Made by a program: the position numbers and the translations under genes. The notes under the pieces were generated by a model. It ran no database searches and was not told the origin of the DNA. It worked only from the letters and a program-made list of their open reading frames with translations. From Allolobophora icterica (lineage: Eukaryota; Annelida; Clitellata; Crassiclitellata; Lumbricidae), in the NCBI GenBank assembly GCA_963556255.1, contig OY744606.1, positions 5,723,127-5,787,126 on the forward strand: a stretch of 64,000 bases of DNA, given 5' to 3'. This document shows, in pieces, positions 6,661-60,451 of this stretch. Every line of letters begins with the position of its first letter. Position 1 is the first letter of the stretch.

Positions 6661-6682
6661 GAAAACGTACAATGAATAACAA

Positions 6683-42303: not shown

Positions 42304-42640
42304 AGTAGATGTGAAAGGGGGCTTTGAGCGCAGGGCCCTCTGAGGGCCCCGAGACCAATGGGCCCTTACAGCAGATCGACCTTCAAAGGGTCTCCAGAGG
42401 CCTACGAACCCATATAGCATATCCACTTTCTCCTGTGTATTTTAGAACAAAATATGCGGGCTTTGAGCGCAGGGCCTTCAGAGAGGGTCCTGAAACCCAC
42501 GGACAATTATAGCAGGCCGACTTCCAGGCAGTCCGTGGAATCCACGAACGCTTATAGCTTAGAAGTCCTCGAGTGTGACAACTTTCACAGTGTGATGATA
42601 ATATCTGTCACGAGTGTCACAGTGTCACACTAAGCTAGGA
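42304..42640. repeat. Left terminal region with two 139-bp repeats and TGTCAC words
   Basis: GGGCTTTGAGCGCAGGGCC occurs at 42319 and again at 42458. Similarity of the two ~139-bp units continues through the GACCTTC/GACTTCC and ACGAAC...TATAGC words. GGCCCTCTGAGGGCC at 42335 is an interrupted palindrome. The stretch 42570-42632 repeats GTGTCACAGTGTCACAC-like words. These lie between the element end and the first gene, where a replication origin would be expected. Confidence 0.6.
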
Positions 42641-42724
42641 GCGTCTTCCTGCAGAAGCATCTTAAGTCGTTCAGAATTTTTTCCATTTAAATAAATGAAT
42701 AGGTTGTGGTATACATAAAACATA

Positions 42725-43000
42725 ATGTTAGGACAAAACTTTTGCATTTGGCTCGGTATAGGTAAAACATCCCTCTGCTGTCGCAGGTGCATTGGGGAGT
42801 ACTGTTTCAAACATTTGGCACGACTGCGAAACGGTTGTGGGACGAGACCTTGCGCCAAATGTGGAAGGGGTATAAAAACACACGTGGGTGAGTGTATGAA
42901 ATGTGGTTATTTCGCTAAATATTTGAGAGCTCGACGAGGTGGGTTAGTCCGTGAATTTAATAAAGAATGGAAGCGACTTTCAAATATATCAGTAGAATAA
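42725..43000 (+). CDS. Small cysteine-rich, probably zinc-binding protein (left arm)
   Basis: A 91-residue basic protein with an ATG start and three Cys pairs: CCRRC, CAKCGRG and CMKCGYF. A His (THVGEC) lies among them, which suggests one or two zinc ribbons. The C-terminal third is rich in Arg/Lys (RARRGG, EWKRL). I do not recognise a named family. It is the outermost gene of the arm, reads inward in the same direction as PolB, and ends 161 bp before it. A DNA- or RNA-binding early protein is plausible but inferred. It is repeated unchanged in the opposite arm. Confidence 0.6.
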   Translation: MLGQNFCIWLGIGKTSLCCRRCIGEYCFKHLARLRNGCGTRPCAKCGRGIKTHVGECMKCGYFAKYLRARRGGLVREFNKEWKRLSNISVE

Positions 43001-43009
43001 AAAAATTAT

Positions 43010-43104
43010 CATTTGAACAAATGATATAGTTATTGTATTGAGATAATACAGATGAGCAAGCGTCAATCGAATATCAGTAAACAAAATTTCATTTTGAACA
43101 AATG
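43010..43104. promoter_or_regulatory. Paired ATTTGAACAAAT palindromes upstream of PolB
   Basis: CATTTGAACAAATGATATA (43010) and CATTTTGAACAAATGATATA (43090) lie 80 bp apart in the AT-rich leader between the Cys-rich gene and PolB. Each contains an inverted repeat CATTTG/CAAATG. Similar CAAATG palindromes occur at the integrase start. A binding site for an element-encoded or host regulator is inferred. Confidence 0.45.
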
Positions 43105-43161
43105 ATATAATTATTATATTAAAGAAAAGTTTGCCATAGTAATATAAAATAATTTTTAACT

Positions 43162-46100
43162 ATGGCATTGTCCACGAATGAAAAAATTGAACAATTGTTG
43201 GGTGAGTTTACCGGTCCCCCAGCTCTTCGAGCTGTTCTACAGAATATCATAGACGAACCTATCCCATATGCCGTCAAAAGGCGCTTACTTCAGCCACTGC
43301 TTCCAAGGCCAATTCCTCCAGTGCGCAAGCATAGAGGGGCAAAACGTAAGGCCCTTCTAGCAGAATTCGACCCACTCCTACTTAAGAAGGATAGAGGTGG
43401 ACCACCACCCTTTCTAGTACACAAAGAGCTCGCCAATCAGCTTCTGAGAGACTTTCGTGCAGAAGTACCTCTTAACCACAGGCTGGAAAGAGATGCGTTG
43501 GCTTTCTTGAGTGCAATGGAGCACAGCATTGAGGCGCAGCTCAACGAAGAGCTCTTGAAATATGGCGGTTTGAAATACTCTCAAGTGTTGACAGTTGAGT
43601 TGGAAAAGTTGGCACCGACCGTTGATAATGTGTATGGTGGCAACGCGCCCCCGGGCATCATTACTAATACCGCCTACTTTCGAAGCACAGCAGTCCCAAT
43701 TACCACTGCGGGTAAAGTCCAAGGGGCTATACGGAAGGCCAAAGCCGAAATACTAAAACTCCTCGAGGATTACACCAATGAGGGGTCGGGGTGGAGGGTG
43801 AGGCGCGTCGTGGCGCTAGACCTAAGTTTTGCAAGATATAAGCCTTTCCGAGGTAAGAGCTACTTTCCCACACCAAAGTACATACCCCCTCGTACGGTTA
43901 TTAATGTCAAGAATGAAGACAACCGTTGCTTCGAGTGGGCCATCTTAAGTGCCATGTATCCAGTAGAAAAGGACCCTCAACGCCCAACTAAGTATCGAGC
44001 TCACCTCCACGAACTAAACTTCGACGGTATAGAATTTCCGGTGAAGGTCACAGATATCGGTAAGTTCGAACGTCAGAACCCGATGGTGTCCATATCGGTC
44101 TTTGGATGGAATGAAGGGCTGTATCCGATTTATGTCTCAACCGAGACTAGAGTTCACAATATTGATCTTCTACTGTTGGCCAGCGATGTAAATGAAAATT
44201 TACCTTTACAGAATTATCACTATGTCTGGATCAAGGACTTGGCCCGAATGCTGTACAAAAACAACGATCATAAAGAGCGAAAGCACCCATGTCGCCGCTG
44301 CCTACACATATTTGGTAGACAAGACTTGCTGGATGCCCATATCAAAGATTGCCAGGGCATCAGTAAGAAGCCTCAGCGGATTGAGATGCCAAAAGAGGAT
44401 GAAAATATCCTCAAATTCCAGAACCATCACAAACAGATGCGCACTCCGTATATCATTTACGCAGACTTCGAGGCTCTAAACATACCAATCGAAGGTGCAG
44501 TCATGAACCCCATCGAGAGCAACACCAGACAGATAGCTGAGCAGAAACCATGCAGCTTCTGTTACATAGTGGTTCGATGCGACGGCCGCACGAAGAAGCC
44601 GGTGCTGTATCGTGGAGAGAACGCTGTGCAAGAGTTCCTACAACGACTACAAGGCGAGCTAGCCACTATCAAACAAAGGCTGGCCACCCCAGCTAAGATG
44701 GTTATGTCAGCGGCCGATCGCCAATCATTCCGCGAGGCTAACGAATGTCATATCTGCGGAGAAGCGCTCGAAGAGGATAGAGTTCGCGACCACTGTCACA
44801 TTACCGGTAAGTACCGGGGTGCCGCTCATAACGCCTGCAACCTCAAGCTTCGAATATATCCAGATAAGTGCAAGGTACCAGTGGTCTTCCACAATCTACG
44901 AGGTTACGACAGCCACCTCATAATGCAAGCGATAGGTAGCTGTGAGGCCGCACAGGATGAACAAACTGAAATTAACTGTATTCCAAACAATATGGAGAAA
45001 TATATGACATTTAATATTGGGCAACTACAGTTCATCGATAGTCTCCAGTTTCTAAACAGCTCTTTGGATAAATTATCAGGAAACCTATCGCTAGAGGATT
45101 TGAAAGTCACAGCAGCATATATAAAGGAAAGTTTCGTTCACAATGATAGGACAAAACTTGATCAGTTGAGACGAAAGGGCGTATATTGTTACGAATACAT
45201 CCATGATTACCACCGCTTCGAAGAAGACCGACTTCCACCTAAAGAAGCGTTCTACAGCAGGCTGTCCCGAGAGAACATCTCTGATGAGGATTATGAACAC
45301 GCTCAAAGAGTGTGGAACGAATTTGATTGTAAAACTCTAGGTGACTATCACGACTTGTATCTCCGTACGGATGTACTCCTACTGGCAGATGTCTTCGAGA
45401 CCTTCAGGTCCACATCGATGAAACACTACAGTCTGGACCCGGCTAACTACTTCAGCCTACCAGGAATGGCCTGGGACGCTTTGTTGAAAAAGACAAAAAT
45501 CGAGCTCGAACTTTTAACAGATATTGACATGCATTTGTTCGTAGAGAAAGGTCTCAGAGGCGGTATTTCGATGGTATCTAAACGCTTCGCAAAAGCCAAC
45601 AACCCGCAATGCCCGGATCATGATACCACGAAGCCAGACAACTGGATCATGTATCTCGATGCTAATAACCTCTACGGCTGGGCGATGCAACAGCCACTGC
45701 CAATTGGAGGATTTAGCTGGGAAAGTCCAACTCTCGACGAAGTGTTGGAAACTCCAGACGACGCGCCTGAAGGCTTCCTGCTCGAAGTCGATCTCGAGTA
45801 CCCGGAGCACCTCCACGATGCTCATAACGACTATCCCCTAGCACCGGAGACCCTGACAGTCCAAGAGGAGTGGTTGAGTGACTATCAGAATGTGCTTATG
45901 AACGAGTTGGAAAGCAAGTTCACAAAGCATGTGAAGTTAATACCAAGCCTACGACCTAAGGAGCGGTATGTGGTCCATTACCGAAATCTCAAACTCTACC
46001 ATTCGTTGGGCCTACGAGTTTCTAAAATCCATCGTGCCGTTAAATTCAGACAGGAGGCATGGATGGCTCCATACATCGAGATGAATACGAAATTGAGAGC

Positions 46101-46920
46101 GAAGGCAACGTCGGAGTTTGAGAAGGATTTCTTCAAACTGGCTAATAATGCGGTCTTTGGAAAGACCATGGAAAATCTTAGAAAAAGAATCAGAGTTAAC
46201 CTGGTACCGACCTCAAAAGTTGGCAAACTTCGTAAACTAATTGCTGACCCGGCCTACATATCACACAAAATCTTCAACGACCAACTCGCCGCGATTCACA
46301 GTTTGAAGAACAAGCTCAAGTTAAACAGACCTGTATATGTCGGCCAGGCTGTCCTAGACCTCAGCAAGCATCTGATGTACGACTTCTGGTACAACGATGT
46401 GAAAAACCAATACGGTGAAAAAGCCCAGTTGCTATATACAGACACTGACAGCCTGTTATTTCAGGTGGAAACTCCGAACGCTTGCACCGATATGTGGAAC
46501 AAAAAACACCTATACGACCTCTCAGAGTTTCCAAGAGACAGTCCCTACTACGACGCCGAGAACAAGAAAATCGTGGGCAAGTTCAAGGATGAATGTAACG
46601 GAGTGGCCATCGCGGAATTCGTAGGATTGCGTCCGAAGATGTACTCGATCTTAAAATCGGGCGGTTCAGAGATCAGGAAAGCAAAAGGCGTTCAGAGAGC
46701 AGTTGTGAAGAAGGATCTGCACCACGAGCTATACAAGAAATGCCTGTTCGAACGAGAGGAAATGCGGCACACACAAGTCGTGATTCGAAGCCACGACCAC
46801 CAGATCGGAGTGTACGAGCAGAATAAGATCAGTCTCTCTCCATTAGACACAAAAAAGTGGATATCTCCGGACGGAATAACAACGCTGGCATACGGTCACT
46901 ACAAAATCAACGACGGTTGA
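43162..46920 (+). CDS. Protein-primed family B DNA polymerase (left arm)
   Basis: Replicates the linear element from its ends. The 1252-residue frame starts at an ATG after an AT-rich leader. A Cys/His zinc-finger-like segment (CRRCLHIF...HIKDC) lies at about 377-397. 3'-5' exonuclease motifs are YADFEA (433-438), FHNLRGYDSH (576-585) and LRTDVLLLADVFE (734-746). Between Exo I and Exo II sits an endonuclease VII/HNH-like module (CHICG at 529, DHCHITGKYRGA, then CN). Polymerase motifs are A YLDANNLYGWAM (831-842), B KLANNAVFGKTMEN (992-1005) and C YTDTDSL (1092-1098). All catalytic residues expected for pPolB are present. It converges with the integrase, and the two 3' ends overlap by 14 bp. 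Confidence 0.96.
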   Translation: MALSTNEKIEQLLGEFTGPPALRAVLQNIIDEPIPYAVKRRLLQPLLPRPIPPVRKHRGAKRKALLAEFDPLLLKKDRGGPPPFLVHKELANQLLRDFRAEVPLNHRLERDALAFLSAMEHSIEAQLNEELLKYGGLKYSQVLTVELEKLAPTVDNVYGGNAPPGIITNTAYFRSTAVPITTAGKVQGAIRKAKAEILKLLEDYTNEGSGWRVRRVVALDLSFARYKPFRGKSYFPTPKYIPPRTVINVKNEDNRCFEWAILSAMYPVEKDPQRPTKYRAHLHELNFDGIEFPVKVTDIGKFERQNPMVSISVFGWNEGLYPIYVSTETRVHNIDLLLLASDVNENLPLQNYHYVWIKDLARMLYKNNDHKERKHPCRRCLHIFGRQDLLDAHIKDCQGISKKPQRIEMPKEDENILKFQNHHKQMRTPYIIYADFEALNIPIEGAVMNPIESNTRQIAEQKPCSFCYIVVRCDGRTKKPVLYRGENAVQEFLQRLQGELATIKQRLATPAKMVMSAADRQSFREANECHICGEALEEDRVRDHCHITGKYRGAAHNACNLKLRIYPDKCKVPVVFHNLRGYDSHLIMQAIGSCEAAQDEQTEINCIPNNMEKYMTFNIGQLQFIDSLQFLNSSLDKLSGNLSLEDLKVTAAYIKESFVHNDRTKLDQLRRKGVYCYEYIHDYHRFEEDRLPPKEAFYSRLSRENISDEDYEHAQRVWNEFDCKTLGDYHDLYLRTDVLLLADVFETFRSTSMKHYSLDPANYFSLPGMAWDALLKKTKIELELLTDIDMHLFVEKGLRGGISMVSKRFAKANNPQCPDHDTTKPDNWIMYLDANNLYGWAMQQPLPIGGFSWESPTLDEVLETPDDAPEGFLLEVDLEYPEHLHDAHNDYPLAPETLTVQEEWLSDYQNVLMNELESKFTKHVKLIPSLRPKERYVVHYRNLKLYHSLGLRVSKIHRAVKFRQEAWMAPYIEMNTKLRAKATSEFEKDFFKLANNAVFGKTMENLRKRIRVNLVPTSKVGKLRKLIADPAYISHKIFNDQLAAIHSLKNKLKLNRPVYVGQAVLDLSKHLMYDFWYNDVKNQYGEKAQLLYTDTDSLLFQVETPNACTDMWNKKHLYDLSEFPRDSPYYDAENKKIVGKFKDECNGVAIAEFVGLRPKMYSILKSGGSEIRKAKGVQRAVVKKDLHHELYKKCLFEREEMRHTQVVIRSHDHQIGVYEQNKISLSPLDTKKWISPDGITTLAYGHYKINDG

Positions 46921-47920
46921 GTATTCTATCGGGGGGTAACTCAGTGCCCATAGGCACCAGAAGCAGTTCCTCACGTACAAATCCGCGGGCAGGACCGTCT
47001 ACCAGATGGTATAGGGCCGGTTGGTCAGCCTGCCGAACAACATCCAAAATAGCGTGGATGGTGAGCGACCAGTTAGGATCGGTGGCACGTTTGCTTCCAC
47101 CTTCGAGCTCGCCGGGAGCGTACAAATATCGGACGAGAACGTCGTGTCCGAGAATAGGCTCATCCATTCCCCACAAACGAGTTTTCATTTGTGAATGAGA
47201 GGGCTTCTGTGTCACTTTAGCAGCTTTCATCGCTTCAACCGGCTTCATGTCGAGCAAGCGCGTCGGCTCATCGTTTAGTGTAGCTACAACTTCGGGCAAT
47301 CGTCGAACCCATTCCACTGACCGTTCTGATGACCCCCTTGCATCCAGGAGCAATTCCTGAGCGTATTGGGCACCGAAGAGTCGCTCAGCTAGAGTACGGT
47401 TAAAGCGTTCAACGATGCCCTGTTGGCGATGATTTCCGGCCTGTCCGCGTCTTACAAGAACGTCGTGCTTCGCCAGCAACGGCGTAAAATCACCCATAAA
47501 TTCGCGTCCAGGATCGACCTGAAAGAGTCGAGGCCAAGTTAATGGGCCCCTCTTATAGATCCGGCTTAAAGCGGCGGCGACTTCGGTCGCACTTTTGTTG
47601 ATCAACGGTTCAGCTTCTTTGTATCGTGAGGCAACATCAACAACAGTGAGAGCGTATTTATAAGTCTTTCGACCTACTTTATCGTGAGGTAAAAACAAGA
47701 GATCGGCTTGGTGTACCGCGTTTGGTCGATTTTCATCGAACTTTGGACGCGGTATGCGGCGTGGAACGGGAAGATAAATCTGCCACACAGCTTGTTTCTT
47801 CAACCAATCACGAGCCTCCGCCTCGGAAACTTTGGCGGCTGAGGCTAGTTTCTTCACCGCAGCCTTACCTCGCCAGTAACCTTTAGGGCTGTAATAGACG
47901 GCTGAAAGGTGCTTAGACAT
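46907..47920 (-). CDS. Retroviral-type DDE integrase (left arm)
   Basis: Inserts the element and produces the flanking short duplication. I favour the ATG at 47920 (337 residues). An upstream in-frame ATG at 47986 would add 22 hydrophobic residues through a palindromic regulatory segment. The N-terminus has YYSPKGYWRG and WLKKQAVWQIYLP, typical of Maverick integrases. The catalytic core has NAVHQADLLFLP (Asp about 73), FQVDPGREF (Asp about 136) and GIVERFNRT (Glu about 171), i.e. 34 residues between the last two. A C-terminal SH3/chromo-like region ends in GFVREELLLVP. No disruption is seen. The gene lies on the strand opposite PolB, ATPase and capsid genes. Confidence 0.95.
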   Translation of the reverse strand: MSKHLSAVYYSPKGYWRGKAAVKKLASAAKVSEAEARDWLKKQAVWQIYLPVPRRIPRPKFDENRPNAVHQADLLFLPHDKVGRKTYKYALTVVDVASRYKEAEPLINKSATEVAAALSRIYKRGPLTWPRLFQVDPGREFMGDFTPLLAKHDVLVRRGQAGNHRQQGIVERFNRTLAERLFGAQYAQELLLDARGSSERSVEWVRRLPEVVATLNDEPTRLLDMKPVEAMKAAKVTQKPSHSQMKTRLWGMDEPILGHDVLVRYLYAPGELEGGSKRATDPNWSLTIHAILDVVRQADQPALYHLVDGPARGFVREELLLVPMGTELPPDRILNRR

Positions 47921-47960
47921 TTCAGTAAAACTATATATTACAAACAGGTAAACACATACA

Positions 47961-48004
47961 CAAATGATTTTCATTTGCGTTTTCATAAATGAAACTCATT
48001 TATG
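47961..48004. promoter_or_regulatory. Two adjacent palindromes upstream of the integrase
   Basis: CAAATGATTTTCATTTG (47961-47977) and CATAAATGAAACTCATTTATG core (inverted arms 47984-47992 and 47996-48004) lie directly upstream of the integrase, the second overlapping the stop of the PLA2-like gene. The shared CAAATG/CATTTG arms echo the pair upstream of PolB. Control of the integrase promoter is inferred. Confidence 0.4.
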
Positions 48005-48550
48005 GCCCTTTGTTCTGACACCCATTCCCAGCCTCGACTTCGCTGACATAATGGCCGATACCAGCCGCGCATCCTTCTTCTCATAATCCGGAGTTTCATC
48101 GGTGAGTGCGATCTTCGACGCGGCTGCAGCGAGGATGTCATCTGCGTGGTTACGCCCCGGAGTATCTTTATGAACTGCGTAAGCCACATCGTGGTGGAGG
48201 CACGCACGGTCGAGCTGATTAACACCGTGATATCGCTGTGACAGCCGTTTATCGAGTTTTGTGAATGGTCCACAGTAAGAGTACTTTCCTGTATTCTGAA
48301 AAGAACCTCCCGGATTATCTTCCGAAGACATACCGGATGGAAGGCTCATATGCATCTCAGGCAGAGGTAGAATATTAAGAGCGCTATTCAGTAGAGAACC
48401 TCCAGTCTTTCGCACTTTAGAAGGCAAAATTTGGCTCTTCTTTGCACCGCAGACGGCACAGGTTCCCTTCTTGGCTGGCCGACCGTTTCGTAACTCGACG
48501 ATTGTTTCATTTGAAGTCTCAGTATGTTTCTTACATCGTAGGCAATACAT
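47996..48550 (-). CDS. Zinc-ribbon plus phospholipase A2-like virion protein (left arm)
   Basis: Probably a capsid-borne lipase that helps the particle breach a membrane, as the PLA2 domain of parvovirus VP1 does. The first true ATG is at 48550 (184 residues); the longer frame opens with TTG. The N-terminus is a zinc ribbon with CLRC (3-6) and CAVC (31-34). A Gly/Pro/Ser linker follows, then the PLA2 core with YCGPFT (calcium-loop position, about 92-97) and LDRACLHHDVAYA, containing the catalytic His-Asp pair (120-121). The loop lacks the usual second Gly, so activity is unproven. It is divergently arranged with the ATPase, with 38 bp between the start codons. Confidence 0.85.
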   Translation of the reverse strand: MYCLRCKKHTETSNETIVELRNGRPAKKGTCAVCGAKKSQILPSKVRKTGGSLLNSALNILPLPEMHMSLPSGMSSEDNPGGSFQNTGKYSYCGPFTKLDKRLSQRYHGVNQLDRACLHHDVAYAVHKDTPGRNHADDILAAAASKIALTDETPDYEKKDARLVSAIMSAKSRLGMGVRTKGHK

Positions 48551-48588
48551 TGTGTTCGTTGAATACAATCATAACTCGTTGTCTCTAT

Positions 48589-49275
48589 ATGGAAATAACA
48601 AATTTCGATCTCGAAGCCGACGATGGGAAAAAACACCACCATTGGTTGTTGCCATCAAGCATACGATGCATAATCTGTGGGCCTAGCGGATGTGGAAAAA
48701 CAAACCTACTACTCAACCTTCTGTTGAAGAAGGGGTACCTGCGTTTTGATCGGCTGTATCTATACTCGAAGTCTCTGGGACAGGAAAAATATCAGTTCCT
48801 CCGGGACTGGGTTACAGAGTTGGAAAAAGTTGCCGGGAAGGAAGTGGCTTCCTTTCACTCTTGCTCAGATGAAATAGTTCCAGTTGAATCATTAAATAAG
48901 AATGCCAGAAGCCTTCTAGTGTTCGATGACGTCATGCTTGAAAAACAGTCGCCCATCGAAAGGTATTTCACTATGGGTCGACACGGTGGCGCGGACTGCT
49001 TCTACTTAACACAGAATTATTTTCGAATTCCGAAGCAAGCGATCCGTGACAATGCTAATCTTATCGTCCTCTTCAACCAGGATAGCAAGAATTTACGAGC
49101 CATTCACGATACGTTCGTGGGCGGCGACATGTCTTTCGATGAGTTCCGTACGTTCTTCAGCGAGTGTGCTGCCCAGCCATATGGATTCGCAGTCATAGAT
49201 TTGACGTCCAAAGTGTACGATGGAAAATATCGTTGCGGGTTCGATCGCTTCTATAAGCCCAAGGCAAGTATTTAA
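48589..49275 (+). CDS. FtsK/HerA-type genome-packaging ATPase (left arm)
   Basis: Pumps viral DNA into the capsid. The in-frame extension upstream starts with TTG and overlaps the divergent PLA2-like gene, so the ATG at 48589 (context TATATGGAA) is preferred, giving 228 residues. Walker A is GPSGCGKT (31-38). Walker B is LLVFDDV (about 110-116). A sensor-like segment GADCFYLTQNYFRIPK follows, matching the Maverick/adintovirus A32-like ATPases. No damage seen. The stop is 40 bp before the coiled-coil protein gene, so a shared transcript is likely. Confidence 0.93.
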   Translation: MEITNFDLEADDGKKHHHWLLPSSIRCIICGPSGCGKTNLLLNLLLKKGYLRFDRLYLYSKSLGQEKYQFLRDWVTELEKVAGKEVASFHSCSDEIVPVESLNKNARSLLVFDDVMLEKQSPIERYFTMGRHGGADCFYLTQNYFRIPKQAIRDNANLIVLFNQDSKNLRAIHDTFVGGDMSFDEFRTFFSECAAQPYGFAVIDLTSKVYDGKYRCGFDRFYKPKASI

Positions 49276-49315
49276 AGACATGATATAGGCAACATATAGT
49301 CGACATACAACCACG

Positions 49316-50428
49316 ATGTGGACAAAGGTTTCTTCTAAACAGGAGCGAGACGCGTTAACTCAGGATTATTTAGCTCGGAGAAATCGATTGAGACAGCGTT
49401 TCGTGGATGAGAAGCTCGGTGAAGCCAATCTTCAGTACGATGCGGCAAAGCTTTTCAAACCAATAGCCACAGCCACCGCTGAATCCCAGGTGGCTACGTC
49501 TAAGGAGCTGCAGAAAGTCACCAGCGCTTTACAGGATTTGCCGGCGCAGATTTCAGAGTCTGCTAATTTTAACCCGATAGCAGCTTTGTTCGGTGATTCC
49601 GTGGGAGCAGTTGCTCCAACGGCTGCTCCAGCCCTTCCAGCGCTTCCAGCATCCCGAATCCCCCCCGCACTGTTAGTCGATCCAAACAAATATCTCAACG
49701 TCGAGGCAATCATAAGGCACGGTTTCAGACCTCCGAGCGAGCTCGATTTAGCCGACAAGGCAGGTGCTGAAAAGATAATCGGTGAGGTCAATCACTATAA
49801 TCGCCACGCCCTGGGCAAAGAGAAAAAGCTGGCTAAAAAGCAAAAAGACGAAGAAAAGGTAGATGCGGTGACTGCAGATATCGAAGCCCTAAGGGAATAT
49901 AAAAAGCGAATCGATACACTGATAGAGGGCCACACCCTCATCAAAAAGGGAAAGGGTTTCAGTGTTCCAACCGTTCCTCTGAAATTACAAGGTAACGCCT
50001 TGGGTGAGCTCTCCGTTGACCCCGTCGCGTTGTCTGCCGGTAGACTGAGAGTGTTTAAAGGTGGTAACCTCGTTCTCGAATCTCCGGCCGATGAGTCGTT
50101 GTTCAGCCTGTTAACGAAACGCTTCGTTAAGACTAAGCAATACTCGCCTCAAGCAATTGAAACTTTTAAAAAACTCGTACAGATGTCTGGTCTGCCTATT
50201 CATGGCCGGAAAAGTAAAAAGTTCCAGCTGATTCGAGGCGGCGCGGTGCAATTTTACAACGACCCAAACGCTCTGGTAGAGAGGTTGCAGCTTTTGGTGG
50301 CCTCTAGGGCCGCGGGAAACACAGGTCTCGGCAACGAAATCTCCGCCATTCTTGACGAGTTACTGCGTTCCGGTGCGATCTCCAAAGAGCTGGCACTCGA
50401 ATTGAATAGAAACATGCTCATAAAATAG
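49316..50428 (+). CDS. Coiled-coil structural-type protein of unknown function (left arm)
   Basis: 370 residues, ATG start. Layout: a charged helical N-terminus (about 1-45); a Ser/Thr/Ala-rich section with an Ala-Pro linker (about 98-120, APALPALPAS); a long Lys/Glu-rich coiled coil (about 155-210); and a mixed alpha/beta C-terminal half with GGNLVLESPADESLFSLL and HGRKSKKFQLIRGG. I do not recognise a characterised family. Its place between the packaging ATPase and the penton-like gene, with 18 bp to the latter, makes a virion or assembly role likely. It has no membrane segment or signal peptide. Confidence 0.75.
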   Translation: MWTKVSSKQERDALTQDYLARRNRLRQRFVDEKLGEANLQYDAAKLFKPIATATAESQVATSKELQKVTSALQDLPAQISESANFNPIAALFGDSVGAVAPTAAPALPALPASRIPPALLVDPNKYLNVEAIIRHGFRPPSELDLADKAGAEKIIGEVNHYNRHALGKEKKLAKKQKDEEKVDAVTADIEALREYKKRIDTLIEGHTLIKKGKGFSVPTVPLKLQGNALGELSVDPVALSAGRLRVFKGGNLVLESPADESLFSLLTKRFVKTKQYSPQAIETFKKLVQMSGLPIHGRKSKKFQLIRGGAVQFYNDPNALVERLQLLVASRAAGNTGLGNEISAILDELLRSGAISKELALELNRNMLIK

Positions 50429-50446
50429 AAATAGAAAACAAAATTC

Positions 50447-51016
50447 ATGGCTCAGATGGAACGCTCGGAGAAACTGCTCGAAGAAATTAGAGAACTTTTA
50501 CAGCCTAAGGAAAATTTTAGTATAGTTGTTTCCTCAGATACTACAGGGTGGACCACGGCTTTCTCACCACCGCTGTACCTGGATCCAAAAAGACGCTTTG
50601 AGCTTGCTTTGATCAATCTTGAAACTTATAATTCGATTCCCAACATCGATAGTACAAATAACAAGTTCGTCTACAGCACCGACAATGGTGTGACGTGGAA
50701 GACGATCATTTTGCCCGACGGAAGCTACGAGATCGCACAGATTAATGATGAAATCGGTAGGCAGTTAGAAAAGCAAAATTCTCCGACGGGTGTGGCACCA
50801 CTCGGCTTTAATTCTCCTATTACCATAGGAGCTAACGCATCTACCCTACGCGCCTTCATAAAAATTACGAATGCCCTATATAAGGTAAATATGGCTCAAT
50901 CTACCATCAGGCAAATGCTCGGTTTTAACCCTCAGAGGCTTGGTAGTGGTTATAAAGAGGGAGAAAATCCAGTCGATATTCTCCGGGTGGACACAATCCT
51001 GGTAAATTGTGATATT
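50447..51016 (+). CDS. Penton-like minor capsid protein, cut by the assembly gap (left arm)
   Basis: The first 190 codons are identical to the complete 266-residue gene in the other arm; the rest falls in the N run. Its start lies 18 bp after the coiled-coil gene. It begins with a charged helix (SEKLLEEIRELL) followed by beta-rich sequence (SIVVSSDTTGW, PPLYLDPKRRFELALINLE). The break is a sequencing gap, not a mutation. Confidence 0.85.
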
Positions 51017-51485: not shown

Positions 51486-51507
51486 TAGAATATTTAAGTG
51501 TGAACAT

Positions 51508-52308: not shown

Positions 52309-52326
52309 GAATTTTGTTTTCTATTT

Positions 52327-53439
52327 CTATTTTATGAGCATGTTTCTATTCAATTCGAGTGCCAGCTCTTTGGAGATCGCACCGGAACGCAGTAACTCGT
52401 CAAGAATGGCGGAGATTTCGTTGCCGAGACCTGTGTTTCCCGCGGCCCTAGAGGCCACCAAAAGCTGCAACCTCTCTACCAGAGCGTTTGGGTCGTTGTA
52501 AAATTGCACCGCGCCGCCTCGAATCAGCTGGAACTTTTTACTTTTCCGGCCATGAATAGGCAGACCAGACATCTGTACGAGTTTTTTAAAAGTTTCAATT
52601 GCTTGAGGCGAGTATTGCTTAGTCTTAACGAAGCGTTTCGTTAACAGGCTGAACAACGACTCATCGGCCGGAGATTCGAGAACGAGGTTACCACCTTTAA
52701 ACACTCTCAGTCTACCGGCAGACAACGCGACGGGGTCAACGGAGAGCTCACCCAAGGCGTTACCTTGTAATTTCAGAGGAACGGTTGGAACACTGAAACC
52801 CTTTCCCTTTTTGATGAGGGTGTGGCCCTCTATCAGTGTATCGATTCGCTTTTTATATTCCCTTAGGGCTTCGATATCTGCAGTCACCGCATCTACCTTT
52901 TCTTCGTCTTTTTGCTTTTTAGCCAGCTTTTTCTCTTTGCCCAGGGCGTGGCGATTATAGTGATTGACCTCACCGATTATCTTTTCAGCACCTGCCTTGT
53001 CGGCTAAATCGAGCTCGCTCGGAGGTCTGAAACCGTGCCTTATGATTGCCTCGACGTTGAGATATTTGTTTGGATCGACTAACAGTGCGGGGGGGATTCG
53101 GGATGCTGGAAGCGCTGGAAGGGCTGGAGCAGCCGTTGGAGCAACTGCTCCCACGGAATCACCGAACAAAGCTGCTATCGGGTTAAAATTAGCAGACTCT
53201 GAAATCTGCGCCGGCAAATCCTGTAAAGCGCTGGTGACTTTCTGCAGCTCCTTAGACGTAGCCACCTGGGATTCAGCGGTGGCTGTGGCTATTGGTTTGA
53301 AAAGCTTTGCCGCATCGTACTGAAGATTGGCTTCACCGAGCTTCTCATCCACGAAACGCTGTCTCAATCGATTTCTCCGAGCTAAATAATCCTGAGTTAA
53401 CGCGTCTCGCTCCTGTTTAGAAGAAACCTTTGTCCACAT
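52327..53439 (-). CDS. Coiled-coil structural-type protein (right arm)
   Basis: Exact mirror of the 370-residue left-arm gene, with the same ATG, linker and coiled-coil layout and no differences noticed. It provides a second, complete dose of a protein of unknown function. Confidence 0.75.
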   Translation of the reverse strand: MWTKVSSKQERDALTQDYLARRNRLRQRFVDEKLGEANLQYDAAKLFKPIATATAESQVATSKELQKVTSALQDLPAQISESANFNPIAALFGDSVGAVAPTAAPALPALPASRIPPALLVDPNKYLNVEAIIRHGFRPPSELDLADKAGAEKIIGEVNHYNRHALGKEKKLAKKQKDEEKVDAVTADIEALREYKKRIDTLIEGHTLIKKGKGFSVPTVPLKLQGNALGELSVDPVALSAGRLRVFKGGNLVLESPADESLFSLLTKRFVKTKQYSPQAIETFKKLVQMSGLPIHGRKSKKFQLIRGGAVQFYNDPNALVERLQLLVASRAAGNTGLGNEISAILDELLRSGAISKELALELNRNMLIK

Positions 53440-53479
53440 CGTGGTTGTATGTCGACTATATGTTGCCTATATCATGTCT

Positions 53480-54166
53480 TTAAATACTTGCCTTGGGCTT
53501 ATAGAAGCGATCGAACCCGCAACGATATTTTCCATCGTACACTTTGGACGTCAAATCTATGACTGCGAATCCATATGGCTGGGCAGCACACTCGCTGAAG
53601 AACGTACGGAACTCATCGAAAGACATGTCGCCGCCCACGAACGTATCGTGAATGGCTCGTAAATTCTTGCTATCCTGGTTGAAGAGGACGATAAGATTAG
53701 CATTGTCACGGATCGCTTGCTTCGGAATTCGAAAATAATTCTGTGTTAAGTAGAAGCAGTCCGCGCCACCGTGTCGACCCATAGTGAAATACCTTTCGAT
53801 GGGCGACTGTTTTTCAAGCATGACGTCATCGAACACTAGAAGGCTTCTGGCATTCTTATTTAATGATTCAACTGGAACTATTTCATCTGAGCAAGAGTGA
53901 AAGGAAGCCACTTCCTTCCCGGCAACTTTTTCCAACTCTGTAACCCAGTCCCGGAGGAACTGATATTTTTCCTGTCCCAGAGACTTCGAGTATAGATACA
54001 GCCGATCAAAACGCAGGTACCCCTTCTTCAACAGAAGGTTGAGTAGTAGGTTTGTTTTTCCACATCCGCTAGGCCCACAGATTATGCATCGTATGCTTGA
54101 TGGCAACAACCAATGGTGGTGTTTTTTCCCATCGTCGGCTTCGAGATCGAAATTTGTTATTTCCAT
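53480..54166 (-). CDS. FtsK/HerA-type packaging ATPase (right arm)
   Basis: Mirror copy with intact GPSGCGKT and LLVFDDV motifs. The start at 54166 is chosen for the same reason as in the left arm: the longer frame opens with a TTG at 54313 inside the divergent PLA2-like gene. Confidence 0.93.
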   Translation of the reverse strand: MEITNFDLEADDGKKHHHWLLPSSIRCIICGPSGCGKTNLLLNLLLKKGYLRFDRLYLYSKSLGQEKYQFLRDWVTELEKVAGKEVASFHSCSDEIVPVESLNKNARSLLVFDDVMLEKQSPIERYFTMGRHGGADCFYLTQNYFRIPKQAIRDNANLIVLFNQDSKNLRAIHDTFVGGDMSFDEFRTFFSECAAQPYGFAVIDLTSKVYDGKYRCGFDRFYKPKASI

Positions 54167-54204
54167 ATAGAGACAACGAGTTATGATTGTATTCAACGAA
54201 CACA

Positions 54205-54759
54205 ATGTATTGCCTACGATGTAAGAAACATACTGAGACTTCAAATGAAACAATCGTCGAGTTACGAAACGGTCGGCCAGCCAAGAAGGGAACCTGTGCC
54301 GTCTGCGGTGCAAAGAAGAGCCAAATTTTGCCTTCTAAAGTGCGAAAGACTGGAGGTTCTCTACTGAATAGCGCTCTTAATATTCTACCTCTGCCTGAGA
54401 TGCATATGAGCCTTCCATCCGGTATGTCTTCGGAAGATAATCCGGGAGGTTCTTTTCAGAATACAGGAAAGTACTCTTACTGTGGACCATTCACAAAACT
54501 CGATAAACGGCTGTCACAGCGATATCACGGTGTTAATCAGCTCGACCGTGCGTGCCTCCACCACGATGTGGCTTACGCAGTTCATAAAGATACTCCGGGG
54601 CGTAACCACGCAGATGACATCCTCGCTGCAGCCGCGTCGAAGATCGCACTCACCGATGAAACTCCGGATTATGAGAAGAAGGATGCGCGGCTGGTATCGG
54701 CCATTATGTCAGCGAAGTCGAGGCTGGGAATGGGTGTCAGAACAAAGGGCCATAAATGA
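54205..54759 (+). CDS. Zinc-ribbon plus PLA2-like protein (right arm)
   Basis: Mirror copy; the ATG is at 54205, and the in-frame TTG at 54187 is not used as a start here. The HHDVAYA active-site signature and both Cys pairs are unchanged. Its stop codon overlaps the palindromic segment ahead of the integrase. Confidence 0.85.
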   Translation: MYCLRCKKHTETSNETIVELRNGRPAKKGTCAVCGAKKSQILPSKVRKTGGSLLNSALNILPLPEMHMSLPSGMSSEDNPGGSFQNTGKYSYCGPFTKLDKRLSQRYHGVNQLDRACLHHDVAYAVHKDTPGRNHADDILAAAASKIALTDETPDYEKKDARLVSAIMSAKSRLGMGVRTKGHK

Positions 54760-54794
54760 GTTTCATTTATGAAAACGCAAATGAAAATCATTTG
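54751..54794. promoter_or_regulatory. Two palindromes upstream of the integrase (right arm)
   Basis: Mirror of 47961-48004, with inverted arms CATAAATGA/TCATTTATG and CAAATG/CATTTG. The upstream alternative integrase ATG (54769) lies within it. Confidence 0.4.
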
Positions 54795-54834
54795 TGTATG
54801 TGTTTACCTGTTTGTAATATATAGTTTTACTGAA

Positions 54835-55848
54835 ATGTCTAAGCACCTTTCAGCCGTCTATTACAGCCCTAAAGGTTACTGGCGAGGTAAGGCTGCGGTG
54901 AAGAAACTAGCCTCAGCCGCCAAAGTTTCCGAGGCGGAGGCTCGTGATTGGTTGAAGAAACAAGCTGTGTGGCAGATTTATCTTCCCGTTCCACGCCGCA
55001 TACCGCGTCCAAAGTTCGATGAAAATCGACCAAACGCGGTACACCAAGCCGATCTCTTGTTTTTACCTCACGATAAAGTAGGTCGAAAGACTTATAAATA
55101 CGCTCTCACTGTTGTTGATGTTGCCTCACGATACAAAGAAGCTGAACCGTTGATCAACAAAAGTGCGACCGAAGTCGCCGCCGCTTTAAGCCGGATCTAT
55201 AAGAGGGGCCCATTAACTTGGCCTCGACTCTTTCAGGTCGATCCTGGACGCGAATTTATGGGTGATTTTACGCCGTTGCTGGCGAAGCACGACGTTCTTG
55301 TAAGACGCGGACAGGCCGGAAATCATCGCCAACAGGGCATCGTTGAACGCTTTAACCGTACTCTAGCTGAGCGACTCTTCGGTGCCCAATACGCTCAGGA
55401 ATTGCTCCTGGATGCAAGGGGGTCATCAGAACGGTCAGTGGAATGGGTTCGACGATTGCCCGAAGTTGTAGCTACACTAAACGATGAGCCGACGCGCTTG
55501 CTCGACATGAAGCCGGTTGAAGCGATGAAAGCTGCTAAAGTGACACAGAAGCCCTCTCATTCACAAATGAAAACTCGTTTGTGGGGAATGGATGAGCCTA
55601 TTCTCGGACACGACGTTCTCGTCCGATATTTGTACGCTCCCGGCGAGCTCGAAGGTGGAAGCAAACGTGCCACCGATCCTAACTGGTCGCTCACCATCCA
55701 CGCTATTTTGGATGTTGTTCGGCAGGCTGACCAACCGGCCCTATACCATCTGGTAGACGGTCCTGCCCGCGGATTTGTACGTGAGGAACTGCTTCTGGTG
55801 CCTATGGGCACTGAGTTACCCCCCGATAGAATACTCAACCGTCGTTGA
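54835..55848 (+). CDS. Retroviral-type DDE integrase (right arm)
   Basis: Mirror copy with Asp, Asp, Glu (about 73, 136, 171) all retained. Having both integrase copies intact means transposition of this locus or of relatives in trans is not excluded by coding damage. The 3' end overlaps the convergent PolB by 14 bp. Confidence 0.95.
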   Translation: MSKHLSAVYYSPKGYWRGKAAVKKLASAAKVSEAEARDWLKKQAVWQIYLPVPRRIPRPKFDENRPNAVHQADLLFLPHDKVGRKTYKYALTVVDVASRYKEAEPLINKSATEVAAALSRIYKRGPLTWPRLFQVDPGREFMGDFTPLLAKHDVLVRRGQAGNHRQQGIVERFNRTLAERLFGAQYAQELLLDARGSSERSVEWVRRLPEVVATLNDEPTRLLDMKPVEAMKAAKVTQKPSHSQMKTRLWGMDEPILGHDVLVRYLYAPGELEGGSKRATDPNWSLTIHAILDVVRQADQPALYHLVDGPARGFVREELLLVPMGTELPPDRILNRR

Positions 55849-58800
55849 TTTTGTAGTGACCGTATGCCAGCGTTGTTATTCCGTCCGGAGATATCCACTT
55901 TTTTGTGTCTAATGGAGAGAGACTGATCTTATTCTGCTCGTACACTCCGATCTGGTGGTCGTGGCTTCGAATCACGACTTGTGTGTGCCGCATTTCCTCT
56001 CGTTCGAACAGGCATTTCTTGTATAGCTCGTGGTGCAGATCCTTCTTCACAACTGCTCTCTGAACGCCTTTTGCTTTCCTGATCTCTGAACCGCCCGATT
56101 TTAAGATCGAGTACATCTTCGGACGCAATCCTACGAATTCCGCGATGGCCACTCCGTTACATTCATCCTTGAACTTGCCCACGATTTTCTTGTTCTCGGC
56201 GTCGTAGTAGGGACTGTCTCTTGGAAACTCTGAGAGGTCGTATAGGTGTTTTTTGTTCCACATATCGGTGCAAGCGTTCGGAGTTTCCACCTGAAATAAC
56301 AGGCTGTCAGTGTCTGTATATAGCAACTGGGCTTTTTCACCGTATTGGTTTTTCACATCGTTGTACCAGAAGTCGTACATCAGATGCTTGCTGAGGTCTA
56401 GGACAGCCTGGCCGACATATACAGGTCTGTTTAACTTGAGCTTGTTCTTCAAACTGTGAATCGCGGCGAGTTGGTCGTTGAAGATTTTGTGTGATATGTA
56501 GGCCGGGTCAGCAATTAGTTTACGAAGTTTGCCAACTTTTGAGGTCGGTACCAGGTTAACTCTGATTCTTTTTCTAAGATTTTCCATGGTCTTTCCAAAG
56601 ACCGCATTATTAGCCAGTTTGAAGAAATCCTTCTCAAACTCCGACGTTGCCTTCGCTCTCAATTTCGTATTCATCTCGATGTATGGAGCCATCCATGCCT
56701 CCTGTCTGAATTTAACGGCACGATGGATTTTAGAAACTCGTAGGCCCAACGAATGGTAGAGTTTGAGATTTCGGTAATGGACCACATACCGCTCCTTAGG
56801 TCGTAGGCTTGGTATTAACTTCACATGCTTTGTGAACTTGCTTTCCAACTCGTTCATAAGCACATTCTGATAGTCACTCAACCACTCCTCTTGGACTGTC
56901 AGGGTCTCCGGTGCTAGGGGATAGTCGTTATGAGCATCGTGGAGGTGCTCCGGGTACTCGAGATCGACTTCGAGCAGGAAGCCTTCAGGCGCGTCGTCTG
57001 GAGTTTCCAACACTTCGTCGAGAGTTGGACTTTCCCAGCTAAATCCTCCAATTGGCAGTGGCTGTTGCATCGCCCAGCCGTAGAGGTTATTAGCATCGAG
57101 ATACATGATCCAGTTGTCTGGCTTCGTGGTATCATGATCCGGGCATTGCGGGTTGTTGGCTTTTGCGAAGCGTTTAGATACCATCGAAATACCGCCTCTG
57201 AGACCTTTCTCTACGAACAAATGCATGTCAATATCTGTTAAAAGTTCGAGCTCGATTTTTGTCTTTTTCAACAAAGCGTCCCAGGCCATTCCTGGTAGGC
57301 TGAAGTAGTTAGCCGGGTCCAGACTGTAGTGTTTCATCGATGTGGACCTGAAGGTCTCGAAGACATCTGCCAGTAGGAGTACATCCGTACGGAGATACAA
57401 GTCGTGATAGTCACCTAGAGTTTTACAATCAAATTCGTTCCACACTCTTTGAGCGTGTTCATAATCCTCATCAGAGATGTTCTCTCGGGACAGCCTGCTG
57501 TAGAACGCTTCTTTAGGTGGAAGTCGGTCTTCTTCGAAGCGGTGGTAATCATGGATGTATTCGTAACAATATACGCCCTTTCGTCTCAACTGATCAAGTT
57601 TTGTCCTATCATTGTGAACGAAACTTTCCTTTATATATGCTGCTGTGACTTTCAAATCCTCTAGCGATAGGTTTCCTGATAATTTATCCAAAGAGCTGTT
57701 TAGAAACTGGAGACTATCGATGAACTGTAGTTGCCCAATATTAAATGTCATATATTTCTCCATATTGTTTGGAATACAGTTAATTTCAGTTTGTTCATCC
57801 TGTGCGGCCTCACAGCTACCTATCGCTTGCATTATGAGGTGGCTGTCGTAACCTCGTAGATTGTGGAAGACCACTGGTACCTTGCACTTATCTGGATATA
57901 TTCGAAGCTTGAGGTTGCAGGCGTTATGAGCGGCACCCCGGTACTTACCGGTAATGTGACAGTGGTCGCGAACTCTATCCTCTTCGAGCGCTTCTCCGCA
58001 GATATGACATTCGTTAGCCTCGCGGAATGATTGGCGATCGGCCGCTGACATAACCATCTTAGCTGGGGTGGCCAGCCTTTGTTTGATAGTGGCTAGCTCG
58101 CCTTGTAGTCGTTGTAGGAACTCTTGCACAGCGTTCTCTCCACGATACAGCACCGGCTTCTTCGTGCGGCCGTCGCATCGAACCACTATGTAACAGAAGC
58201 TGCATGGTTTCTGCTCAGCTATCTGTCTGGTGTTGCTCTCGATGGGGTTCATGACTGCACCTTCGATTGGTATGTTTAGAGCCTCGAAGTCTGCGTAAAT
58301 GATATACGGAGTGCGCATCTGTTTGTGATGGTTCTGGAATTTGAGGATATTTTCATCCTCTTTTGGCATCTCAATCCGCTGAGGCTTCTTACTGATGCCC
58401 TGGCAATCTTTGATATGGGCATCCAGCAAGTCTTGTCTACCAAATATGTGTAGGCAGCGGCGACATGGGTGCTTTCGCTCTTTATGATCGTTGTTTTTGT
58501 ACAGCATTCGGGCCAAGTCCTTGATCCAGACATAGTGATAATTCTGTAAAGGTAAATTTTCATTTACATCGCTGGCCAACAGTAGAAGATCAATATTGTG
58601 AACTCTAGTCTCGGTTGAGACATAAATCGGATACAGCCCTTCATTCCATCCAAAGACCGATATGGACACCATCGGGTTCTGACGTTCGAACTTACCGATA
58701 TCTGTGACCTTCACCGGAAATTCTATACCGTCGAAGTTTAGTTCGTGGAGGTGAGCTCGATACTTAGTTGGGCGTTGAGGGTCCTTTTCTACTGGATACA

Positions 58801-59593
58801 TGGCACTTAAGATGGCCCACTCGAAGCAACGGTTGTCTTCATTCTTGACATTAATAACCGTACGAGGGGGTATGTACTTTGGTGTGGGAAAGTAGCTCTT
58901 ACCTCGGAAAGGCTTATATCTTGCAAAACTTAGGTCTAGCGCCACGACGCGCCTCACCCTCCACCCCGACCCCTCATTGGTGTAATCCTCGAGGAGTTTT
59001 AGTATTTCGGCTTTGGCCTTCCGTATAGCCCCTTGGACTTTACCCGCAGTGGTAATTGGGACTGCTGTGCTTCGAAAGTAGGCGGTATTAGTAATGATGC
59101 CCGGGGGCGCGTTGCCACCATACACATTATCAACGGTCGGTGCCAACTTTTCCAACTCAACTGTCAACACTTGAGAGTATTTCAAACCGCCATATTTCAA
59201 GAGCTCTTCGTTGAGCTGCGCCTCAATGCTGTGCTCCATTGCACTCAAGAAAGCCAACGCATCTCTTTCCAGCCTGTGATTAAGAGGTACTTCTGCACGA
59301 AAGTCTCTCAGAAGCTGATTGGCGAGCTCTTTGTGTACTAGAAAGGGTGGTGGTCCACCTCTATCCTTCTTAAGTAGGAGTGGGTCGAATTCTGCTAGAA
59401 GGGCCTTACGTTTTGCCCCTCTATGCTTGCGCACTGGAGGAATTGGCCTTGGAAGCAGTGGCTGAAGTAAGCGCCTTTTGACGGCATATGGGATAGGTTC
59501 GTCTATGATATTCTGTAGAACAGCTCGAAGAGCTGGGGGACCGGTAAACTCACCCAACAATTGTTCAATTTTTTCATTCGTGGACAATGCCAT
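55835..59593 (-). CDS. Protein-primed family B DNA polymerase (right arm)
   Basis: Mirror copy of 1252 residues with all exonuclease and polymerase motifs intact. The single base I found differing from the left arm (59279) turns an AAC Asn codon into AAT, a silent change near residue 105. Confidence 0.96.
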   Translation of the reverse strand: MALSTNEKIEQLLGEFTGPPALRAVLQNIIDEPIPYAVKRRLLQPLLPRPIPPVRKHRGAKRKALLAEFDPLLLKKDRGGPPPFLVHKELANQLLRDFRAEVPLNHRLERDALAFLSAMEHSIEAQLNEELLKYGGLKYSQVLTVELEKLAPTVDNVYGGNAPPGIITNTAYFRSTAVPITTAGKVQGAIRKAKAEILKLLEDYTNEGSGWRVRRVVALDLSFARYKPFRGKSYFPTPKYIPPRTVINVKNEDNRCFEWAILSAMYPVEKDPQRPTKYRAHLHELNFDGIEFPVKVTDIGKFERQNPMVSISVFGWNEGLYPIYVSTETRVHNIDLLLLASDVNENLPLQNYHYVWIKDLARMLYKNNDHKERKHPCRRCLHIFGRQDLLDAHIKDCQGISKKPQRIEMPKEDENILKFQNHHKQMRTPYIIYADFEALNIPIEGAVMNPIESNTRQIAEQKPCSFCYIVVRCDGRTKKPVLYRGENAVQEFLQRLQGELATIKQRLATPAKMVMSAADRQSFREANECHICGEALEEDRVRDHCHITGKYRGAAHNACNLKLRIYPDKCKVPVVFHNLRGYDSHLIMQAIGSCEAAQDEQTEINCIPNNMEKYMTFNIGQLQFIDSLQFLNSSLDKLSGNLSLEDLKVTAAYIKESFVHNDRTKLDQLRRKGVYCYEYIHDYHRFEEDRLPPKEAFYSRLSRENISDEDYEHAQRVWNEFDCKTLGDYHDLYLRTDVLLLADVFETFRSTSMKHYSLDPANYFSLPGMAWDALLKKTKIELELLTDIDMHLFVEKGLRGGISMVSKRFAKANNPQCPDHDTTKPDNWIMYLDANNLYGWAMQQPLPIGGFSWESPTLDEVLETPDDAPEGFLLEVDLEYPEHLHDAHNDYPLAPETLTVQEEWLSDYQNVLMNELESKFTKHVKLIPSLRPKERYVVHYRNLKLYHSLGLRVSKIHRAVKFRQEAWMAPYIEMNTKLRAKATSEFEKDFFKLANNAVFGKTMENLRKRIRVNLVPTSKVGKLRKLIADPAYISHKIFNDQLAAIHSLKNKLKLNRPVYVGQAVLDLSKHLMYDFWYNDVKNQYGEKAQLLYTDTDSLLFQVETPNACTDMWNKKHLYDLSEFPRDSPYYDAENKKIVGKFKDECNGVAIAEFVGLRPKMYSILKSGGSEIRKAKGVQRAVVKKDLHHELYKKCLFEREEMRHTQVVIRSHDHQIGVYEQNKISLSPLDTKKWISPDGITTLAYGHYKINDG

Positions 59594-59650
59594 AGTTAAA
59601 AATTATTTTATATTACTATGGCAAACTTTTCTTTAATATAATAATTATAT

Positions 59651-59745
59651 CATTTGTTCAAAATGAAATTTTGTTTACTGATATTCGATTGACGCTTGCT
59701 CATCTGTATTATCTCAATACAATAACTATATCATTTGTTCAAATG
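59651..59745. promoter_or_regulatory. Paired CATTTG/CAAATG palindromes upstream of PolB (right arm)
   Basis: Mirror of 43010-43104, between the PolB start and the Cys-rich gene. Confidence 0.45.
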
Positions 59746-59754
59746 ATAATTTTT

Positions 59755-60030
59755 TTATTCTACTGATATATTTGAAAGTCGCTTCCATTCTTTATTAAAT
59801 TCACGGACTAACCCACCTCGTCGAGCTCTCAAATATTTAGCGAAATAACCACATTTCATACACTCACCCACGTGTGTTTTTATACCCCTTCCACATTTGG
59901 CGCAAGGTCTCGTCCCACAACCGTTTCGCAGTCGTGCCAAATGTTTGAAACAGTACTCCCCAATGCACCTGCGACAGCAGAGGGATGTTTTACCTATACC
60001 GAGCCAAATGCAAAAGTTTTGTCCTAACAT
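59755..60030 (-). CDS. Small cysteine-rich protein (right arm)
   Basis: Mirror copy of the 91-residue protein with CCRRC, CAKCGRG and CMKCGYF intact. No function assigned. Confidence 0.6.
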   Translation of the reverse strand: MLGQNFCIWLGIGKTSLCCRRCIGEYCFKHLARLRNGCGTRPCAKCGRGIKTHVGECMKCGYFAKYLRARRGGLVREFNKEWKRLSNISVE

Positions 60031-60114
60031 TATGTTTTATGTATACCACAACCTATTCATTTATTTAAATGGAAAAAATTCTGAACGACTTAAGATGCTT
60101 CTGCAGGAAGACGC

Positions 60115-60451
60115 TCCTAGCTTAGTGTGACACTGTGACACTCGTGACAGATATTATCATCACACTGTGAAAGTTGTCACACTCGAGGACTTCTAAGCTA
60201 TAAGCGTTCGTGGATTCCACGGACTGCCTGGAAGTCGGCCTGCTATAATTGTCCGTGGGTTTCAGGACCCTCTCTGAAGGCCCTGCGCTCAAAGCCCGCA
60301 TATTTTGTTCTAAAATACACAGGAGAAAGTGGATATGCTATATGGGTTCGTAGGCCTCTGGAGACCCTTTGAAGGTCGATCTGCTGTAAGGGCCCATTGG
60401 TCTCGGGGCCCTCAGAGGGCCCTGCGCTCAAAGCCCCCTTTCACATCTACT
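60115..60451. repeat. Right terminal region with 139-bp repeats
   Basis: Mirror of 42304-42640. It ends CATCTACT at 60451, immediately followed by the TTCCA target duplication. Confidence 0.6.

Follow-up and report, generated by a model that had tools for sequence, protein, structure and literature searches.

Palindromic left-half genomes of a Maverick-like element in Allolobophora icterica

Palindromic genomes in described systems

Mavericks are thought to be viruses whose free particles are hard to catch. Palindromes of one end are familiar from protein-primed linear replicons, such as the symmetric adenovirus recombinants and the palindromic derivatives of yeast linear plasmids. Those molecules are episomal or virion DNA with no integrase-made insertion, unlike the case described here, a Maverick-like element of ~18.3 kb (with its central gap filled by symmetry) that lies as a palindrome in the window, a stretch of 64,000 nt of the Allolobophora icterica genome (assembly GCA_963556255.1, contig OY744606.1, labelled C5, positions 5,723,127-5,787,126 of the forward strand). 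Two further palindromes of the same family were found in this genome, and all three very probably arose as snap-back genomes that formed before integration and were then inserted as units by the retroviral-type integrase, on three separate occasions.

The snapback genomes of adeno-associated virus (AAV) constitute a class of defective-interfering DNA in which, as here, one end is present as an inverted duplicate around a fold-back point, either symmetric or looped, and the other half is missing; the likeness extends to the 5' snapback class, which holds part of the replication gene (available text of PMC8235507). On the other hand, AAV is a single-stranded parvovirus replicating from hairpin ends, and the molecules of that report are packaged ones and not integrated germline copies, with neither integrase nor target duplication in the text available (PMC8235507). 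In the Towne and AD169 variants of human cytomegalovirus, an inverted left-end duplication likewise takes the place of the right-end region, although these are laboratory strains of a herpesvirus and are not integrated (PMC2885757, available part).

As for Mavericks themselves, the accessible part of a study of vertebrate elements gives a length of ~17 kb with ~10% variation, which suggested a constrained genome size, and 6-bp duplications (PMC8097293). The family described here resembles those Mavericks or Polintons and the adintoviruses in its family B DNA polymerase (PolB), rve integrase, A32-type ATPase, penton and, in ordinary siblings only, double jelly-roll (DJR) capsid protein, as well as in its ends (AGTAG...), lengths of 15.5-18.8 kb and duplications of 5-6 bp (same part of PMC8097293). 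The three palindromes depart from the elements described there in lacking the right half and the capsid gene, and in carrying inverted arms of 7-9 kb in place of terminal repeats of ~0.3 kb; the string 'palindrom' does not occur in the available text (PMC8097293).

The first-pass annotation of the window knew of no described palindromic Maverick, and a search of the literature agreed with it, at the level of titles and abstract openings and with partial coverage (subscription papers lay mostly outside it), which leaves absence unproven; within the same scope, no paper was found that joined Mavericks or Polintons with defective interfering genomes. As far as this search reaches, what is new is not the snapback genome, already known, but its integrated form in a Maverick, bounded by a target duplication of its own and present at three loci of a single genome.

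The window palindrome and its turn

The first-pass annotation presented the element as one near-perfect palindrome with mirror arms of 9140 bp, position x pairing with 102755-x. This pairing was borne out, since the 8,713 positions of 42304-51016 pair in reverse complement with 51739-60451 apart from a single mismatch (43476/59279; the left arm has C at 43476, the right arm T). The arm length was not: 8,713 bp are sequenced on both sides, and a 200-N gap had gone unmentioned, so that the arms lie on two gap-joined stretches. The arbitrary length of this gap also shifted the axis as first placed, the real turn being found in the right contig. Palindrome symmetry requires that 361 nt of the left arm be missing in the gap, and the N run therefore seems to be a scaffold gap, a length-keeping mask of 200 nt fitting less well; 200 N is a common scaffolding filler. 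A run of 5,000 N, unlike the one in the window, cuts the left end of another young copy (L033 84-5083, C1:15005683-15010682).

The right contig opens with 97 nt of forward element sequence, identical to eight of the nine ordinary copies fetched (the ninth, L014, shows 89% over 83 nt). From 51312 the strand reverses, and the sequence passes backwards over the penton, ATPase, integrase and PolB genes as far as the left terminus. Against all eight matching copies the turn reads identically, forward to the 3' end and back from 31 nt earlier, and because the forward 97 nt, the reversal and the inverted arm all lie in the right contig, the turn itself has been sequenced.

The symmetry stops at 42304 and 60451, beyond which the flanks differ from each other, and the TTCCA duplication is found at these outer ends, as first annotated. 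The palindrome is therefore bounded by an integration scar, the chance of an exact 5-mer duplication being ~1 in 1,024 per locus. TAACTA-type minisatellites occur in both flanks (42070-42173, ~130 bp to the left of the element, and 61035-61178, ~600 bp to the right).

Two further palindromes and their ordinary siblings

The genome (1.118 Gb in 328 contigs) was searched with pieces of the element, and in each search only the best 40 of 828-1,690 first-look candidates were scored, so the samples represent the youngest copies and older palindromes would be missed. With a PolB piece (1,131 candidates) and with a terminal piece (1,189), the 40 scored matches fell at 37 loci in each case, and convergent pairs of hits appeared in both searches at the same three loci only: the window, C3:8283433-8298035 and C1:60202324-60219759. 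The search for palindromic and full-length relatives proposed by the first-pass annotation thus returned two more palindromes as well as ordinary copies. It had looked to palindromes sharing the junction of the window; none was found, each 301-nt turn query giving a full match, among the scored candidates, at its own locus only. At 39 other scored loci the two halves of the window and C1 queries land on the same place on opposite strands, as in ordinary copies that run through, and the remaining scored hits of the C3 query cover one half only. A lineage of copies with one common turn was accordingly discarded, none being seen among the scored candidates.

The C1 palindrome measures 17,436 bp, is flanked by a CCGCT duplication and has no N across its centre. 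In coordinates of the left arm of the window (u), it runs forward to u51032 and back from u51014, with an overlap of TATC and a 14-nt loop; seven of the eight ordinary copies compared give this same reading, and along the remaining one (L009) a difference brought the exact-match walk to an early end. The left contig of the window ends at u51016, at most 2 nt from this turn-back position. The C3 palindrome (14,603 bp, duplication GGTAG) is likewise free of N across its centre and turns with a 1-nt overlap, forward to u49303 and back from u49890, which leaves a loop of ~586 nt. All three duplications are exact and their flanks unrelated.

Comparison of arm with arm gave, for C1, 2 mismatches in 4,277 outer bases and none in 4,431 inner ones and, for C3, 2 in 3,736 outer bases and none in 3,446 inner ones, apart from one 9-nt gap, which sits in the left arm, the right arm being ungapped against the C3 sibling. 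Identity to the window varies along the arms as a mosaic of 90-100%, which is nearly the same in the two arms of C1, and likewise in those of C3 (the C3 mosaics differ by up to 1.8 points per bin, at the 9-nt gap), and C1 and C3 therefore each derive from one molecule. Altogether, the separate turns, separate duplications, different nearest siblings and shared arm mosaics speak for three fold-back events, each within one molecule. Palindromes of the right end were also sought; a capsid piece and a right-side piece each gave 40 scored hits at 40 loci, with no pairs within 40 kb.

Each palindrome has its own near-identical ordinary sibling, the siblings measuring 15.5-18.8 kb. For the window this is C14:40885253-40903783 (18,531 bp), with identities of 100%, 99.95% and 99.8% over three pieces, although over PolB a copy at 15.0 Mb of C1 is equally near. 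The nearest ordinary copy found for the C1 palindrome is C14:44752883-44771659 (18,777 bp, 99.4-100%), and that of the C3 palindrome is C3:8523710-8539238 (15,529 bp, 99.9-100% apart from the 9-nt gap in one arm). The starts of the C3 palindrome and its sibling are ~0.24 Mb apart on the same contig, a closeness that may reflect local insertion. Both window arms hold the same set of alleles. Two of these were taken for private ones and then dropped: 46604 T occurs in four of the seven ordinary copies examined, and 45696 A, absent in all six copies first compared, is present in the C14 copy at 44.8 Mb and in the C1 palindrome.

Both ends were fetched for four ordinary copies, whose terminal repeats measure 251-321 bp, and long repeats as the ordinary state were rejected for this reason; the duplications of these four copies are GGGCC, ATCACC, CCTAT and CTCCTC. 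Beyond the point at which the window turns, the C14 copy at 40.9 Mb continues through the rest of a 152-aa gene (pVI-like by eye) to a DJR major capsid protein of 431 aa (PF21738, 9.2e-55), and it also holds a 190-aa open reading frame (ORF) with a sub-threshold match to protein X (E 0.007), a 620-aa ORF (fibre-like by eye) and two ORFs without Pfam match. The C3 sibling has the same capsid match (PF21738, 9.2e-55), and the C14 sibling at 44.8 Mb matches the capsid piece in its DNA. The C1 and C3 palindromes, in contrast, are filled end to end by left-half sequence, as is the window palindrome up to its gap, which leaves no room for the major capsid gene. For C3 this argument is needed, the capsid-piece search alone being insufficient, as its type falls outside the best 40.

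Judged by its sequence, the element is a derivative of a young Maverick/Polinton-like (adintovirus-like) family, and the three palindromes are incomplete derivatives, since the DJR capsid protein is absent from them and present in the ordinary siblings. Of the Maverick hallmarks, the family B DNA polymerase, the rve integrase, the A32/FtsK-like ATPase, the penton, the terminal inverted repeats and the 5-6-bp duplications were all found, the DJR major capsid protein being missing from the palindromes. A snap-back genome is recognised by one end duplicated in inverted orientation, the loss of the other half and a fold-back junction, and all of these are seen.

The genes of the window element are listed in Table 1. 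PolB, integrase, PLA2-like, ATPase, coiled-coil (370-aa) and penton-like ORFs occur in both arms, as first annotated, the left penton ORF entering the gap. Four of the frames (PolB, integrase, PLA2-like and ATPase) are uninterrupted in both window arms and, read in separate pieces, in those of the C1 and C3 palindromes. A model of the penton protein of middling quality (pLDDT 74.5, pTM 0.55) had as its best PDB match in Foldseek the mavirus penton 6g41 (E 2e-8, TM 0.36) and also matched adenovirus penton bases, the TM-scores of the best matches being low (0.30-0.36). Pfam scans of eight window stretches and six of the C14 copy at 40.9 Mb (E <= 0.1) revealed no protease family such as an adenain-like cysteine protease. 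Scans of IMG/VR with the PolB, the ATPase and a penton alignment gave no confirmed relative, phage records none, and a PDB sequence search no match to the capsid protein. Two repeats of ~41 nt, 81 bp apart, lie just before the PolB start (42999-43120, and in mirror image), and also in the C1 and C3 palindromes. Elsewhere in the window, two open frames on the minus strand resemble by eye a LINE (long interspersed nuclear element) endonuclease/reverse transcriptase (3560-6727, 1,055 aa) and a Tc1/mariner-type transposase (22152-23234, 360 aa).

Table 1. Features of the palindromic element in the window
Feature	Positions	Strand	Basis or remark
TTCCA target-site duplication, left copy	42299-42303		outer end of left arm
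Left arm as assembled, ending at gap	42304-51016	+	ordinary copies run through same sequence
Stretch equal to ~0.3-kb terminal inverted repeat of ordinary copies (approximate)	42304-42620	+	251-321-bp alignments between left and right ends in four ordinary copies
PolB, 1252 aa, left arm	43162-46920	+	Pfam DNA_pol_B_2, 4.8e-23
Retroviral-type (rve) integrase, 359 aa, left arm	46907-47986	-	Pfam rve, 2.7e-10
DUF5679 + PLA2-like protein, 184 aa, left arm	47996-48550	-	Pfam, 6.4e-14 and 1.5e-9
A32-type packaging ATPase, 228 aa, left arm	48589-49275	+	Pfam Pox_A32, 2.4e-8
370-aa protein, left arm (coiled-coil in first-pass annotation)	49316-50428	+	ORF; no Pfam family above cut-off
Penton-like gene, gap-truncated, left arm	50447-51016	+	ORF
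200-N gap at inner end of left arm	51017-51216		only N run in window
Forward element sequence up to turn, first 97 nt of right contig	51217-51313	+	identical to 8 of the 9 ordinary copies fetched
Snap-back point, 2-nt microhomology TG	51312-51313		loop 51283-51311, 29 nt
Right arm, inverted copy of left half	51312-60451	-	sequence comparison
Start of 152-aa gene (length in ordinary copy), pVI-like by eye, broken at turn	51312-51485	-	no Pfam family
Penton protein, 266 aa, right arm	51508-52308	-	Foldseek; 906 homologues
370-aa protein, right arm	52327-53439	-	ORF
ATPase, right arm	53480-54166	-	ORF
PLA2-like protein, right arm	54205-54759	+	ORF
Integrase, right arm	54769-55848	+	ORF
PolB, right arm	55835-59593	-	ORF
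TTCCA target-site duplication, right copy	60452-60456		outer end of right arm

Formation of the palindromes and its meaning

The capture by integrase of a snap-back genome with two identical ends, advanced in the first-pass annotation, is the best-supported explanation, given the three loci with their own 5-bp duplications and turns and the capsid gene missing in comparison with the siblings. Under such a mechanism, strand-displacement replication, presumably protein-primed, would start at the left end and the nascent 3' end would halt slightly short of mid-genome. It would then fold back through a microhomology of 1-4 nt, leaving a loop (29 nt in the window, 14 nt in C1, ~586 nt in C3), and copy its own strand to the left terminus, so that each end of the resulting linear duplex would carry this terminus. 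The retroviral-type integrase could take these two identical ends and insert the molecule as a unit, with an ordinary 5-bp duplication. The short loops with 2-4 nt of microhomology in the window and C1 are the trace expected of a 3' end folding on its own strand, and together with the duplications at the outer ends they suggest extrachromosomal formation before insertion. Altogether this suggests that faulty snap-back genomes were made repeatedly and inserted like normal ones.

Several points weigh against this explanation. The evidence is that of an assembly, and the centre of the window palindrome holds the 200-N gap. With its asymmetry of ~586 nt and its turn on a 1-nt overlap, the C3 palindrome is weaker evidence for a simple snap-back, although one side of its centre may have been lost afterwards. 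Protein priming by this PolB is assumed from the Maverick literature. Moreover, all three palindromes are left-ended, and the numbers behind this (3 among 37 left-end loci, 0 among 40 right-side loci) are too small to count as a significant bias.

The C3 asymmetry would come naturally from conversion after integration, in which an ordinary inserted element breaks in its right half and its right terminal repeat invades a left one, its own or that of another copy, and copies the left half, to be end-joined to the left half that remains. The 251-321-bp repeats of ordinary copies could seed the invasion, the duplication would be preserved, the arms would be near-identical, and the microhomology at the junctions is compatible with end joining. 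However, the near-symmetry of C1 (to within 14 nt) and of the window (29 nt) would be rare for two unrelated ends, and conversion by itself does not predict a total length close to one genome in all three palindromes, so that we regard it as improbable. A further alternative is the capture of two molecules, the left ends of two separate broken genomes being integrated at one target and joined by their inner ends. It accounts for the identical outer ends and the ordinary duplication, but the break points must match within 14-31 nt in two of three cases and both arms share nearly the same mosaic of variants, which makes it extremely unlikely.

The palindromes could also be products of assembly or scaffolding, either two haplotypes with ordinary elements in opposite orientation joined over a gap or fold-back chimeric reads that were assembled. 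The window does have its gap, and the end of its left contig near the C1 turn-back position resembles a branch point of the assembly graph, which would mean that the C1 turn was present in the reads. Nevertheless, a join of haplotypes or scaffolds as the whole explanation was set aside for C1 and C3, whose centres are free of N, and is unlikely for the window, whose right contig by itself runs from 97 nt of forward sequence through the turn to the far end of the inverted arm. In addition, the arms differ slightly (by 1 substitution in the window, by 2 in the outer pieces of C1, and by 2 plus the 9-nt gap in C3), where identity would be the expectation for an artefact, and the three turns are different and lie within three different duplications. 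An assembly product is therefore highly unlikely.

With fold-back before integration preferred, the lengths of the palindromes deserve attention. They amount to 0.99 (window, gap filled), 0.93 (C1) and 0.94 (C3) of those of the siblings (n = 3), the turns lying at about 45-50% of sibling length. Such lengths, just under one genome, hint at a ceiling on genome size, for which a limit set by packaging is one explanation and arrest where two replication forks meet is another. Palindromes without a capsid gene would presumably depend on ordinary copies for their capsids. A bolder and rather doubtful extension is that this Maverick family repeatedly takes a second form, the palindromic left-half genome, snapped back just short of mid-genome, kept to sub-genome length by the virion, mobilised by ordinary copies that supply the capsid, and entering the germline with polymerase and integrase each present twice. 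If this were true, transcription through the axis would give a long, perfectly paired hairpin RNA from genes of the family itself, possibly a self-made trigger of silencing.

At these three loci, mistakes in the replication of a linear and probably protein-primed molecule seem to have been preserved like fossils, as snap-back genomes. The palindromes suggest that two copies of one and the same end are acceptable to the integrase, and their lengths just below one genome unit hint at a packaging limit. Two questions are thereby made measurable: whether this Maverick family replicates as a linear extrachromosomal molecule, and whether its genomes are packaged.

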